DNA of 52,402 nt from Pseudogulbenkiania sp. Lineage in GTDB: Bacteria > Pseudomonadota > Gammaproteobacteria > Burkholderiales > Chromobacteriaceae. The stretch lies in assembly GCA_016192025.1 (NCBI GenBank), contig JACPUY010000350.1, positions 1-52,402 on the forward strand, in the 5' to 3' direction. The notes below the pieces were generated by a model, which made no database searches, was not told where the DNA came from, and saw nothing but the letters and a program-made list of their open reading frames with translations. Position numbers and translations under genes: made by a program. Shown piece after piece: positions 16,115-20,046 of the stretch (the first letter of the stretch is position 1; every line of letters starts with the position of its first letter).

Positions 16115-16138
16115 TCCGGCCAGCGTTGCGCACCACCA

Positions 16139-16163
16139 CGGCAGCCCACGGGCTGCCGTTTTT
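16139..16163 (+). terminator. Rho-independent terminator after ppc
   Basis: CGGCAGCCC-ac-GGGCTGCCG followed by TTTTT. Confidence 0.88.
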
Positions 16164-16334: not shown

Positions 16335-16763
16335 ATGAATACTGAAGCAAGCCGCCTCCCGCTACACCGCCACGCCACCGGCTTTACGCTGATCGAGCTG
16401 CTGATCACCCTCGTCATCGTGGGAATCCTCGCCGCCATCGCGCTGCCGGCCTATCAGAGCTACGTGCAGAAAAGCCGCCGCACAGACGCCACCGTCGCCA
16501 TGCGCGCGATCCAGTTTGCCGAGGAGAAGTGGCGCGCCAACAACAGCAGCTACGGCACGCTGGCGCAGCTGGGCATGAGCTCCAGCACTGACAGCGGTTA
16601 TTACACGCTGGCGTTGAGCAACCTATCGGGTACCGGCTACACCATCACCGCCACCGCGGTGAGCGGCACCTCGCAGGCCTCGGACAGCGGCTGCACCGCA
16701 CTGGTACTGCAGCAGTCCGGCGCCACACTGACCACCACCCCGAGCAGCTGCTGGAGCAAGTGA
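16335..16763 (+). CDS. pilE: Type IV minor pilin, PilE-like
   Basis: Prepilin signature G|FTLIELLITLVIVGILAAIALPAYQSYV; two C-terminal cysteines. Confidence 0.9.
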   Translation: MNTEASRLPLHRHATGFTLIELLITLVIVGILAAIALPAYQSYVQKSRRTDATVAMRAIQFAEEKWRANNSSYGTLAQLGMSSSTDSGYYTLALSNLSGTGYTITATAVSGTSQASDSGCTALVLQQSGATLTTTPSSCWSK

Positions 16764-17321
16764 ATGGTGCCGACCACCCACCGCGCGCACCTTGCCGGCG
16801 GCTTCACCCTAATCGAAATGCTGGTGACGCTGGCCGTGCTGGCCATCGTGCTGGCGCTGGCCGTGCCTTCGCTCAGCGACTTCATCGACCGCGGCCGGCT
16901 CACCTCGGCCGCCGACACGCTGTACGCCGACCTGCAGTTCGCCCGTTCGGAAGCCATCCGCAACAACCAGAACGTGCTCGTCAGCTTCCAGAGCGGCAGC
17001 GCGTGGTGCTACGGCATGGTGCTGGGCAGCAGCGCCTGCGACTGCAGCGTGACCAACAGCGCCGCCGCCAACTACTGCACGCTGAAACGGATCAGCGCCG
17101 CCGACTTCAGCCAGGTATCGATTCCCGACGCCGCCAGCATCACCTTCGCCGCCAACCAGACCGGCTTCGACCCGGTACGCGGGGTCGCGCTGAGTTCCGG
17201 CGCCGTCACCGTGCAGTCGACGCAGGGCAAGCAGGCCACCGTCAGCCTGGCGCTGCTTGGCCGCGTCAGCCTGTGTTCCCCCGCCGGCAGCGGCTTCACC
17301 AGCGCCTACCCCTCATGCTGA
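16764..17321 (+). CDS. GspH/FimT family pseudopilin
   Basis: GG|FTLIEMLVTLAVLAIVLALAVPSLSDFI; GspH-like LQFARSEAIRNNQNV. Confidence 0.9.
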   Translation: MVPTTHRAHLAGGFTLIEMLVTLAVLAIVLALAVPSLSDFIDRGRLTSAADTLYADLQFARSEAIRNNQNVLVSFQSGSAWCYGMVLGSSACDCSVTNSAAANYCTLKRISAADFSQVSIPDAASITFAANQTGFDPVRGVALSSGAVTVQSTQGKQATVSLALLGRVSLCSPAGSGFTSAYPSC

Positions 17322-17968
17322 CCCGCTCCCGCCAACAAGGCGTCTCGCTGATCGAACTGATGGTGGCGCTCGGCATCAGCCTGGTGCTGCTGCTGGGCAT
17401 GACCCGCTTCCTGTCGACCAGCCTCACCAGCAACGCCAGCACGATGAAGGCCGCCCGCCTCAACCAGGAGTTGCGCGCCATCATGCTCTTGATCAGCCGC
17501 GACGTGCGCCGGGCCGGATACTGGGGCAATGCCAGCAGCGGCGTCGGTGTTGGTGCCGCCTCTTACAGCAACCCGTTCGGCACGGTGAACACCGCGACCG
17601 CCGGCTGCATCCTGTATAGTTACGACCGCGACGGCGACGGCAGCCAGGACAGCGACGAGCAATACGGCGTGCTGCTCAGCAGCGGCGTCGCCATGTTGCG
17701 CAGCGGCGGCACCGATTACACTTGTACCCTGGGCGCCAACAACAGCTGGGAAGCGCTGTCCGACAGCAACGTCACCAGCATCACCACGCTCACCTTTAGC
17801 CTAAACACCAGCAATCCCCCCTACTACGTGAGCGGATCGTCGGGCCCCAACGTGGTGATGCGCACCGTCACCATCACGCTGGCCGGGCAACTGAAGAACG
17901 ACAGCAGCGTCAAGCTGACGCTGACCGAAACGGTCAAGCTGGAAAACGATCTGTTCCAGGCCAGCTGA
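17315..17968 (+). CDS. pilW: PilW family minor pilin
   Basis: ATG at 17315 inside ORF 16760-17968; G|VSLIELMVALGISLVLLLGMTRFL. Confidence 0.87.
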   Translation: MLTRSRQQGVSLIELMVALGISLVLLLGMTRFLSTSLTSNASTMKAARLNQELRAIMLLISRDVRRAGYWGNASSGVGVGAASYSNPFGTVNTATAGCILYSYDRDGDGSQDSDEQYGVLLSSGVAMLRSGGTDYTCTLGANNSWEALSDSNVTSITTLTFSLNTSNPPYYVSGSSGPNVVMRTVTITLAGQLKNDSSVKLTLTETVKLENDLFQAS

Positions 17969-17977
17969 GGCACGCCC

Positions 17978-19051
17978 ATGACCCATCGCCCCGCCCCGCT
18001 CTCGCGCCAACACGGCCTGGCCACCTTGACCACCGCGCTGATCATGCTGTTTTTGATGAGCCTGATGATCTTCAACACCAGTTCCGGCATGCTGCTCGAG
18101 CTGAAAACCGGCAACAACCAGTACTACCAGGCCAAGGCGCTGGAGGCGGCGCGTGGTGGAATCGATTACACCGTCTCCTGGCTGGATGTCTCAAGCAACT
18201 ACAGCAGCCTAAGCTGGAGCAACGATGCCACCGGTCCGAGCGGCAACAACCAGCAGGCGACGAACCTGTCATCCTCCGTAGCCAGCCAGACCATCGGCGG
18301 CTACACGGTTGCCGTCACGCTGTGGCGCGACTCGGCCGATACCTCGATCCTGGAAGTCCGGGCCATCGCCAGTGGTGACGCCAGTGTCACGGTGCGACAA
18401 AAAATCCATGCCAAGACCATCCAGTTCAATATCCCCAGCGTGCCACCACTGGTGATCGACGGCTGCCTCAGCGGCGTCACCGGCACCCCGGACATGCACC
18501 CAGCCAACGATGGCGATTTCGTCATTGATTCATCTCAGGCCAGTAGTTGCATCGATACCGGCCACCTGAACATGACCAATGATGGAAAAACCGGGAAGGT
18601 CCATCAGACTGCCTTCAGCAGCAGTGCCTGGGACTATGTCTTTGCTACCTCCATGTCCGACATGAAGGCACTGGCGGCACAATCCTCTGCCGATGCCATC
18701 TATTACTACGATGACACGGACGCTACCAACAAGACCGCTCCTGAAAATTGGCACGACGACGTCGGCAGCGAGAGCTCCCCCGGCATCCTGGTGTTCAATT
18801 TTAGCGATGAAAAAGACTGCCCCAAGATCAACGGTGACGTCACCATCTACGGCATCGTCTATTACTCGGCCGCCTGCAGCAAGAACCCTGGCTGGGGCAA
18901 CTTCATCCTGCATGGCAGCGTGGTATTCGAGGGAGAGGTCACTCAAATGACCGCCAACACCCAGTACTATCCTTGGACTGGCGGCAGCACCCCGAGCTAC
19001 ACCATCGCCATGGATTTTGCCAAGCTGCCCGCCTCGTGGAGGGACTTCTGA
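17978..19051 (+). CDS. PilX-like pilus assembly protein
   Basis: N-terminal TM HGLATLTTALIMLFLMSLMIF, SGMLLELKTGNNQYYQAKALEAARGGIDY typical of PilX N-terminus. Confidence 0.85.
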   Translation: MTHRPAPLSRQHGLATLTTALIMLFLMSLMIFNTSSGMLLELKTGNNQYYQAKALEAARGGIDYTVSWLDVSSNYSSLSWSNDATGPSGNNQQATNLSSSVASQTIGGYTVAVTLWRDSADTSILEVRAIASGDASVTVRQKIHAKTIQFNIPSVPPLVIDGCLSGVTGTPDMHPANDGDFVIDSSQASSCIDTGHLNMTNDGKTGKVHQTAFSSSAWDYVFATSMSDMKALAAQSSADAIYYYDDTDATNKTAPENWHDDVGSESSPGILVFNFSDEKDCPKINGDVTIYGIVYYSAACSKNPGWGNFILHGSVVFEGEVTQMTANTQYYPWTGGSTPSYTIAMDFAKLPASWRDF

Positions 19052-20046
19052 TGGCCCACGGCACCTCTTTGCGCCAGCGCGGCTTCAGCCTGCTGGAAGT
19101 GCTGATCACGCTGGTGGTACTCGGCGGCGGCCTGCTGGCCATCGGCGGCCTGTACGGCAAGATCATGAACGGCAGCGCCGCCGCCAAGGAGCGCAGCGAG
19201 GCGGTGGTGCTGGCCGAACAGAAGATCGAGGAGCTGCGCTACACCCAGTATGCCAACATTGCCGACGGGTCGGATGCCAACCCCATTGCCGGCACCGCTG
19301 CCAGCTATGCCCGCAGCTGGACTGTCACCACTTCAGCCAGTCCGACCTACAAGGACGTGGCCATCACCGTCAGCTGGACCGACAGCCGCAACCAGAGCCA
19401 GAGCGCGGTGCTGACCAGCCGCATCAGCGGCATCGACCCGGTACGCTCGGCCGAGCTGATCGCCACGGTCAGCTCCAGCAGTTCGGGCACCGGCAGCGGA
19501 ACGAGCAGCGGTACCGGAACGGGCAGCAGCACCGGCAGCGATAGCGGGACAGGAACGGGAACGAACAGCGGAACCGACACAGGGACGGGAACAGGGACCG
19601 ATACCGGCACTACCGTGACGACCTGCAGCACCAGCTATAGCGTCACCGCCACCTCGAGTTCGTCCACCATCAGCGGCAGTCCGGTTTCCTGCAGCCACAA
19701 CAGCGGACAGTCGTGGACCTGCAGCACCACCGCGAGCTCCGGCACCAGCGTCACCATCAGCGACGACCTGGGCTACGCCACCGCGTCGATCCCGGCCGCC
19801 AACTGCTCCAGCAACGCGGTGACGTTCCAGTGCAGTACGACGTTCAGCATCACGGCCCAGACCGGTGCCTCCAGCATCACCACCAGCTCCGGTTCATGCA
19901 GCAATACCAGCGACAAGTCCTGGACCTGCACGTCGTCCGCCGCCAAGGGCACGACCATCACCATCACCGACAGCAAGGGCTCGGGCAACAGCGCGGCCAG
20001 TTGGCCCAGCGCTGCCAGCTGCGGCTCCCTCAGCCATTCTTTCTGA
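19051..20046 (+). CDS. PilV-like minor pilin with low-complexity linker and tandem Cys modules
   Basis: RG|FSLLEVLITLVVLGGGLLAIGGLYGKIMNG; C-terminal half is a SG/GT-rich linker plus two related 4-Cys modules. Confidence 0.85.
   Translation: MAHGTSLRQRGFSLLEVLITLVVLGGGLLAIGGLYGKIMNGSAAAKERSEAVVLAEQKIEELRYTQYANIADGSDANPIAGTAASYARSWTVTTSASPTYKDVAITVSWTDSRNQSQSAVLTSRISGIDPVRSAELIATVSSSSSGTGSGTSSGTGTGSSTGSDSGTGTGTNSGTDTGTGTGTDTGTTVTTCSTSYSVTATSSSSTISGSPVSCSHNSGQSWTCSTTASSGTSVTISDDLGYATASIPAANCSSNAVTFQCSTTFSITAQTGASSITTSSGSCSNTSDKSWTCTSSAAKGTTITITDSKGSGNSAASWPSAASCGSLSHSF
19468..19617 (+). repeat. Low-complexity Gly/Ser/Thr-coding tract in the pilV-like gene
   Basis: Degenerate 6-nt (GGN-ACN/AGC) repetition encoding SSSSGTGSGTSSGTGTGSSTGSDSGTGTGTNSGTDTGTGTGTDTGTT. 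Confidence 0.85.
19624..20043 (+). repeat. Two tandem ~70-aa modules within the pilV-like protein
   Basis: Module 1 from 19624, module 2 from 19831; C-x21-C-x9-C-x27-C versus C-x21-C-x9-C-x30-C, both with SWTC. Confidence 0.85.

Follow-up and report, generated by a model that had tools for sequence, protein, structure and literature searches.

The protein of 331 amino acids encoded at positions 19051–20046 of the window (the whole stretch of 52,402 nucleotides analyzed, which is contig C342 of a 3.2-Mb, 356-contig, 84% complete Pseudogulbenkiania assembly) is most plausibly a modular type IV minor pilin that presents ligand-binding heads at the tip of the pilus, with a cassette-like module segment. 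As judged from sequence comparisons, the protein has a modular architecture, its C-terminal module is duplicated and recurs in relatives, the gene belongs to a minor-pilin operon, and the modules have diverged discordantly from the pilin carrying them. The architecture is already known, that of the modular pilins, a diverse class of more than 1,200 proteins with 264 architectures, most of which carry one module and some several copies (PMC8179133). The module family, its variation in copy number and its cassette-like history look new: searches of the open-licence literature yielded no account of a core minor pilin whose orthologues carry zero, one or two modules and whose modules diverge discordantly. 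Undescribed modules were expected by the authors of the modular-pilin survey (PMC8179133).

Gene layout and domain architecture

The genes of the operon and the parts of the modular pilin are as follows:

16335..16763, + strand: PilE/ComP-like minor pilin, operon gene 1 (PF16732, ComP_DUS, 72.1 bits, over cut-off)
16764..17321, + strand: FimU/GspH-like minor pilin (PF12019, 52.9 bits, over cut-off)
17321..17968, + strand: PilW/GspJ-like minor pilin (PF07963 over cut-off; NF007848, PpdB-type, 62.4 bits, below the cut-off of 120)
17978..19051, + strand: PilX/GspK-like minor pilin with a long C-terminal region (PF14341 and NF037980 (GspK), 13.6 bits each, both sub-threshold; operon position)
19051..20046, + strand: PilV/GspI-like modular minor pilin, 331 aa (TIGR02523, 35.7 bits, cut-off 52.2; TIGR01707, 28.5 bits, cut-off 44.35)
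19051..19470, + strand: prepilin leader, hydrophobic helix and pilin head, residues 1–140 (PF07963 over cut-off; the orthologue in the genus g10 ends at the same point; likeness to GspI structures 5bw0/2ret, not significant)
19471..19623, + strand: Ser/Gly/Thr linker, residues 141–191, with repetitive DNA (composition; tandem repeats of 6, 18 and 30 bases)
19624..19827, + strand: module 1 (M1), residues 192–259, four Cys (cysteine pattern, M1/M2 alignment, shuffle test)
19831..20043, + strand: module 2 (M2), residues 261–331, four Cys (cysteine pattern, M1/M2 alignment, shuffle test; seven strands in AlphaFold2, pLDDT 70.5)

The open reading frame of the modular pilin is intact, and its start is well placed since the ATG overlaps the stop codon of the PilX-like gene (TGATG). 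An assembly artefact is excluded by the intact copies of the gene in P. ferrooxidans 2002 (L019) and P. subflava DSM 22618 (L020). The coordinates, frame and motifs given in the first-pass annotation were all recovered, and its cysteine spacing is exact. The prepilin motif, RQRG/FSLLEV, is of the class III signal peptide (N-methylation) type and is recognized above the cut-off by both PF07963 (24.2 bits, cut-off 21.2) and TIGR02532 (25.1 bits, cut-off 16.3). The protein falls short of the GspI pseudopilin model TIGR01707 and also of the PilV equivalog model TIGR02523, on which the relatives score 32.7, 36.4 and 39.6 bits; because of the shortfall on TIGR02523 it is labeled here PilV/GspI-like rather than PilV proper.

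A full PilV/GspI-like head of about 130 residues (about residues 12–140) lies between the N-terminus and the linker. Two points of the first-pass annotation have to be revised on this account: the linker does not directly follow the prepilin N-terminus, and the modules do not replace the pilin head, which is a normal one to which the modules have been added, as in the modular-pilin architecture (PMC8179133). Pilin module, linker and extra C-terminal module are all present. The flexible stalk and the duplicated modules described in the same annotation were both retained: the linker has 51 residues, 46 of which are Ser, Thr or Gly (13 S, 18 T, 15 G), and is followed by two related four-cysteine modules. 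The cysteines are at positions 192, 214, 224 and 252 in M1 (spacing x21, x9, x27) and 261, 283, 293 and 324 in M2 (x21, x9, x30), and the SWTC motif is common to the two.

Origin and predicted structure of the module

M1 and M2 are identical at 24 of 50 aligned positions (48%; BLASTP E=2e-13), which upholds the duplication proposed from their cysteines. Their Smith-Waterman score of 153 was reached by none of 3000 composition-preserving shuffles (mean 52; z=14), so that their likeness is not explained by their S/T-rich composition. The identity of the two copies at the DNA level is 63%, which makes the duplication an old one. The family was indeed as unfamiliar as first supposed: no match was obtained in Pfam, NCBIfam or PDB sequence searches, so the module does not correspond to a domain known outside pili, the criterion used in the InterPro survey. 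Pfam WRC (E 0.0044, under cut-off), RNaseT2L_C (E 0.047) and azurin (E 0.58) were all judged to be chance matches. The C-terminal disulfide region of the major pilin, which also contains WTC, was dismissed as a counterpart since only 12 columns were aligned, with a probability of 1.4%.

The modules might also be duplicates of the beta-sheet of the pilin head itself, without its helix. M2 does align weakly to about residues 88–120 of the pilin domain (z=3.1), where the module profile scores 5.5 bits; but the E-value of that profile match is 0.66, M1 and the P. subflava module reach z values of only 1.5 and 1.4, and the cysteines are missing from the pilin sheet. This origin is scarcely credible and was rejected.

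The AlphaFold2 model of the module, built on a five-sequence module alignment, is a small, low-confidence beta-sandwich of seven strands (pLDDT 70.5, pTM 0.55, i.e., moderate confidence). The first cysteine precedes the first strand and the fourth precedes the last, and a hairpin (22–27/30–35) is likely to bring the second and third cysteines close together; C2-C3 and C1-C4 would be the putative disulfides. A fold search against the PDB gave nothing significant, the best matches being CGTase (E 0.28) and the CBM20 of STBD1 (E 0.30). The module was not placed significantly among the CBM20, Ig-like or phage collar-fibre beta-sandwiches: CBM20 and Ig-like folds were matched at E 0.3 and above, and the likeness to viral models in BFVD was weak (best E 0.008, with an uncharacterised phage protein; collar fibres 0.07–0.2). 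The model of the full-length protein is poor (mean pLDDT 48.7), yet the order of the strands is similar in M1 and M2; its pilin part resembles the GspI proteins XcpV and EpsI, not significantly.

Distribution of the module among relatives

The number of modules varies among close relatives. P. ferrooxidans 2002 (85% identity over the PilV-like protein) has two modules and P. subflava DSM 22618 (65% identity) has one, and in five genomes of the Chromobacteriaceae genus g10 the orthologous pilin (54–57% identical) ends directly after the head. The existence of these module-less orthologues indicates that the module is an addition to the pilin.

A profile of five Pseudogulbenkiania modules was run over 61 Chromobacteriaceae genomes. 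The best match outside Pseudogulbenkiania was found in genome G032 (E=6.8e-4), followed by a weaker one in G031 (E=0.026). Both are located at the C-terminus of a PilV-like prepilin in the genus g4, encoded at the end of the same operon of five genes; G031 was examined because its match is near a PilY1 gene, and neither genome was chosen for having its match on PilV. The two g4 modules keep the four cysteines and the tryptophan two residues before the third cysteine, and pairwise profile comparisons between the Pseudogulbenkiania and g4 modules gave E-values of 2e-4 and 1.2e-3. Once the two sequences had been added to the profile, all four g4 genomes matched (the non-seed genomes G030 and G033 with E-values of 5.4e-24 and 1.8e-22), which, since these genomes are closely related to the seeds, confirms the presence of the module throughout g4 rather than independent homology. 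The alignment of eight modules has the invariant columns C, T, C, W, C, A and C. Homology of the module between the two genera is considered probable.

The g4 PilV-like proteins (208–210 aa) probably carry a single module, and those of g3 (110–116 aa) carry none. Module-bearing PilV proteins thus form two lineages, both of which have a relative without the module, a pattern that fits either two graftings or repeated loss. The module was seen only at the C-terminal end of the terminal PilV of this operon and not on other secreted proteins. The first-pass annotation had proposed to check whether other pilins carry the module in different copy numbers; such cases were observed in P. subflava (one module) and g4 (probably one). 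Profile searches extended to the order (399 genomes) and the class (369 genomes) yielded only spurious or out-of-frame matches, with about 15 candidates scored per genome, so that distant members may be missed; none was found on the viral contigs and plasmids searched. What emerges is a small, apparently undescribed module family. One and the same orthologous core minor pilin naturally exists with no, one or two copies of the module, and these alleles allow a direct test of what a head grafted onto a PilV-like subunit adds to pilus function.

Discordant divergence of the module segment

Three genomes (those of the window, P. ferrooxidans and P. subflava) were compared in terms of synonymous divergence. 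Between the window and P. ferrooxidans, dS is 0.155 in the modules (bootstrap 0.08–0.27) versus 0.48 in the pilin part (0.32–0.67). Between the window and P. subflava the relation is reversed: M2 has a dS of 1.7 (0.9–3.6; 69 codons, less certain alignment) or, with a tblastn-based alignment, 1.2, and the pilin part 0.31 (0.19–0.45). The flanking genes have dS values of 0.29 and 0.31 (ppc) and 0.22 and 0.31 (argH) with respect to P. ferrooxidans and P. subflava, respectively. At the amino acid level, the pilin part is 75–78% identical in both comparisons, whereas the identity of the modules amounts to 93–96% with P. ferrooxidans and about 40–46% with P. subflava. These contrasts show that the history of the module segment differs from that of the pilin domain and the flanking genes. 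Recombination through the repetitive linker DNA would be the simplest explanation, one that three genomes do not prove. The segment behaves as if it were an exchanged cassette, which can be absent, single, duplicated or replaced, on a pilin part that stays orthologous. If the discordance holds with more strains, it would mean that recombination moves binding heads between tip pilins.

Most orthologues do without the extension, and slippage can produce a repetitive linker, as would be expected if the extension were tolerated without any selected function. This is very improbable, given that the four cysteines and the tryptophan are kept across two genera, that an old duplication is still intact, and that dN is 0.035 against a dS of 0.155 between the window and P. 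ferrooxidans; the resulting dN/dS of about 0.22 between close copies indicates constraint on the modules.

The discordant divergence is also compatible with the idea that modules and S/T stalk serve mainly as a glycosylated, variable shield or decoy against pilus phages or predators and are exchanged under that selection, not for the choice of ligand. The S/T-rich stalk and modules, the presence of a PglL homologue in the genome and the fast evolution of the neighbouring PilX-like protein (63–75% identity) speak in its favour, but the invariant cysteines and tryptophan, together with the low dN/dS of the two close copies, indicate that the fold is maintained, and a protein at the tip would cover little of the filament. 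A shield function seems improbable.

As regards the PilX-like neighbour itself (17978–19051), its conservation is the lowest in the operon, with 63% identity to P. ferrooxidans and 75% to P. subflava, the corresponding values for the Ppc and ArgH proteins being 93–98%; on the strength of this low conservation, it may also be under diversifying selection or recombination.

Organization of the minor-pilin operon

The PilV-like gene closes a minor-pilin operon of five adjoining or overlapping genes, with pilY1 not among them. The operon sits between ppc and argH, with a terminator-like stem (16138–16159) after ppc. The same five-gene order without pilY1 occurs in g10 (L040, L041), g4 (L059, L060, L097, L098) and g3 (L094, L095); in another g10 locus (L042) four prepilins fit the order, and L096 has it in a divergent form. 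The g3 and g4 operons share their location, being preceded by a gene for a small membrane protein; downstream of the operon, L094, L095 and L098 encode the same protein family, starting with PELVCPAGSLPALKxA. The PilX-like protein at the same position in g4 has about 600 aa in two loci (L059:2154–3956, − strand, and L060:1599–3404), where it looks repetitive and is possibly a beta-solenoid, and 318 aa in two others (L097:3829–4785 and L098:3986–4942).

The order GspH-GspJ-GspK-GspI with the PilV-like gene last and without PilY1, in which the GspK assignment is based on sub-threshold scores and operon position, is that of ppdAB-ygdB-ppdC of E. coli and comNOPQ of Haemophilus influenzae (PMC12616744, PMC5131608). 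This match makes DNA uptake the main rival function: the operon would be a competence minor pilin set, and the PilV modules would help to capture DNA or hold partners of the DNA-binding tip. comNOPQ is required for DNA uptake (PMC12616744), and in Kingella kingae transformation depends on the core minor pilins, PilV among them (PMC12607826). In the window, the FimU- and PilW-like proteins score best or near-best with Ppd-type NCBIfam models, and the product of the first gene matches ComP_DUS. However, the cut-offs of the NCBIfam Ppd equivalogs are missed (PpdA-type 47.1 bits versus 158, PpdB-type 62.4 versus 120, PRK10332 14.9 versus 86), and the operon differs from ppdAB-ygdB-ppdC and comNOPQ in having the PilE/ComP-like gene in front and, in two genera, a module-bearing terminal PilV. 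The modules are nearly neutral and poor in basic residues (none in M1, three Lys in M2), and, by eye, basic character is not a feature that the genera share. They are also missing from orthologous operons, and in Pseudogulbenkiania sp. NH8B and strain 2002 no DNA uptake sequence has been detected (PMC3630211). A role of the modules in DNA uptake is rather unlikely on these grounds.

Proposed function and comparison with known systems

According to the favored reading of a modular pilin with displayed heads, the PilV/GspI-like pilin domain would join the PilX-, PilW- and FimU-like products of the operon in a priming complex at the pilus tip. This tip location is suggested by models of PilV and of GspI in type II secretion, where the GspI-GspJ-GspK tip provides an analogy for the priming complex (PMC5131608), and a FimT-PilV-PilW-PilX tip has been proposed in Kingella (PMC12607826). 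The 51-residue Ser/Gly/Thr stalk, flexible and possibly O-glycosylated, would hold the modules beyond the tip. Glycosylation of the stalk is plausible, since contig C228 of the source genome (L047, L099) has a PglL-type O-oligosaccharyltransferase motif at a distance of about 1 kb from the gene for the major pilin and in the same orientation; the location of this motif is also suggestive of pilin glycosylation. The one or two small four-cysteine beta-modules would most likely bind a surface, cell or polymer ligand, by analogy with the modules of other modular pilins, which bind ligands directly (PMC8179133). Against this reading, the confidence of the module model is moderate, with no significant match in the PDB, and PilY1 genes are present elsewhere in Pseudogulbenkiania and in g4, so that the pili of these bacteria could adhere without PilV. 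Since many orthologous operons lack modules, any function would be strain-specific.

Like PilB (vWA) and PilC (lectin) of Streptococcus sanguinis, the protein consists of a pilin domain, a linker and an extra C-terminal module (PMC8179133). Unlike them, it has a PilV/GspI-like core minor pilin as carrier, a long, low-complexity linker, and a module with putative binding function that matches no database family and numbers zero, one or two copies among close relatives. CofB and TcpB of type IVb pili also have extra beta-rich domains after the pilin module and a flexible linker, and are located at the pilus tip (PMC8179133), but their domains are others, they are trimeric and belong to another class of pilus, and neither was matched in the PDB sequence search. 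The fimTpilVWXE core minor pilins of K. kingae are of the same five subunit types, and the tip complex proposed there is needed for adherence and twitching (PMC12607826); their order differs, and adhesion in Kingella proceeds via the PilC1/PilC2 adhesins (PMC12607826).

One might go further and regard the terminal PilV-like subunit of PilY1-less minor-pilin operons as a socket for interchangeable binding heads, with small four-cysteine modules being grafted onto it, duplicated, and exchanged among species via the repetitive S/G/T stalk, in a role like that of the variable N-terminal region of PilY1; this generalization is a speculative one, and we consider it unlikely to hold as a whole.

With regard to PilY1, the contigs C194 and C203 of the source genome (L043, L044) carry PilY1 genes, each with several prepilin motifs nearby, which indicates further minor pilin clusters of the PilY1-bearing kind. 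In g10, the genomes carrying the close PilV relative (G048, G050–G053) gave no PilY1 match at E<=0.001, and most of the other g10 genomes gave one to four; it is possible that one tip system has been replaced by another in this genus. The absence of PilY1 alongside the operon is not general, as Pseudogulbenkiania and g4 have both.
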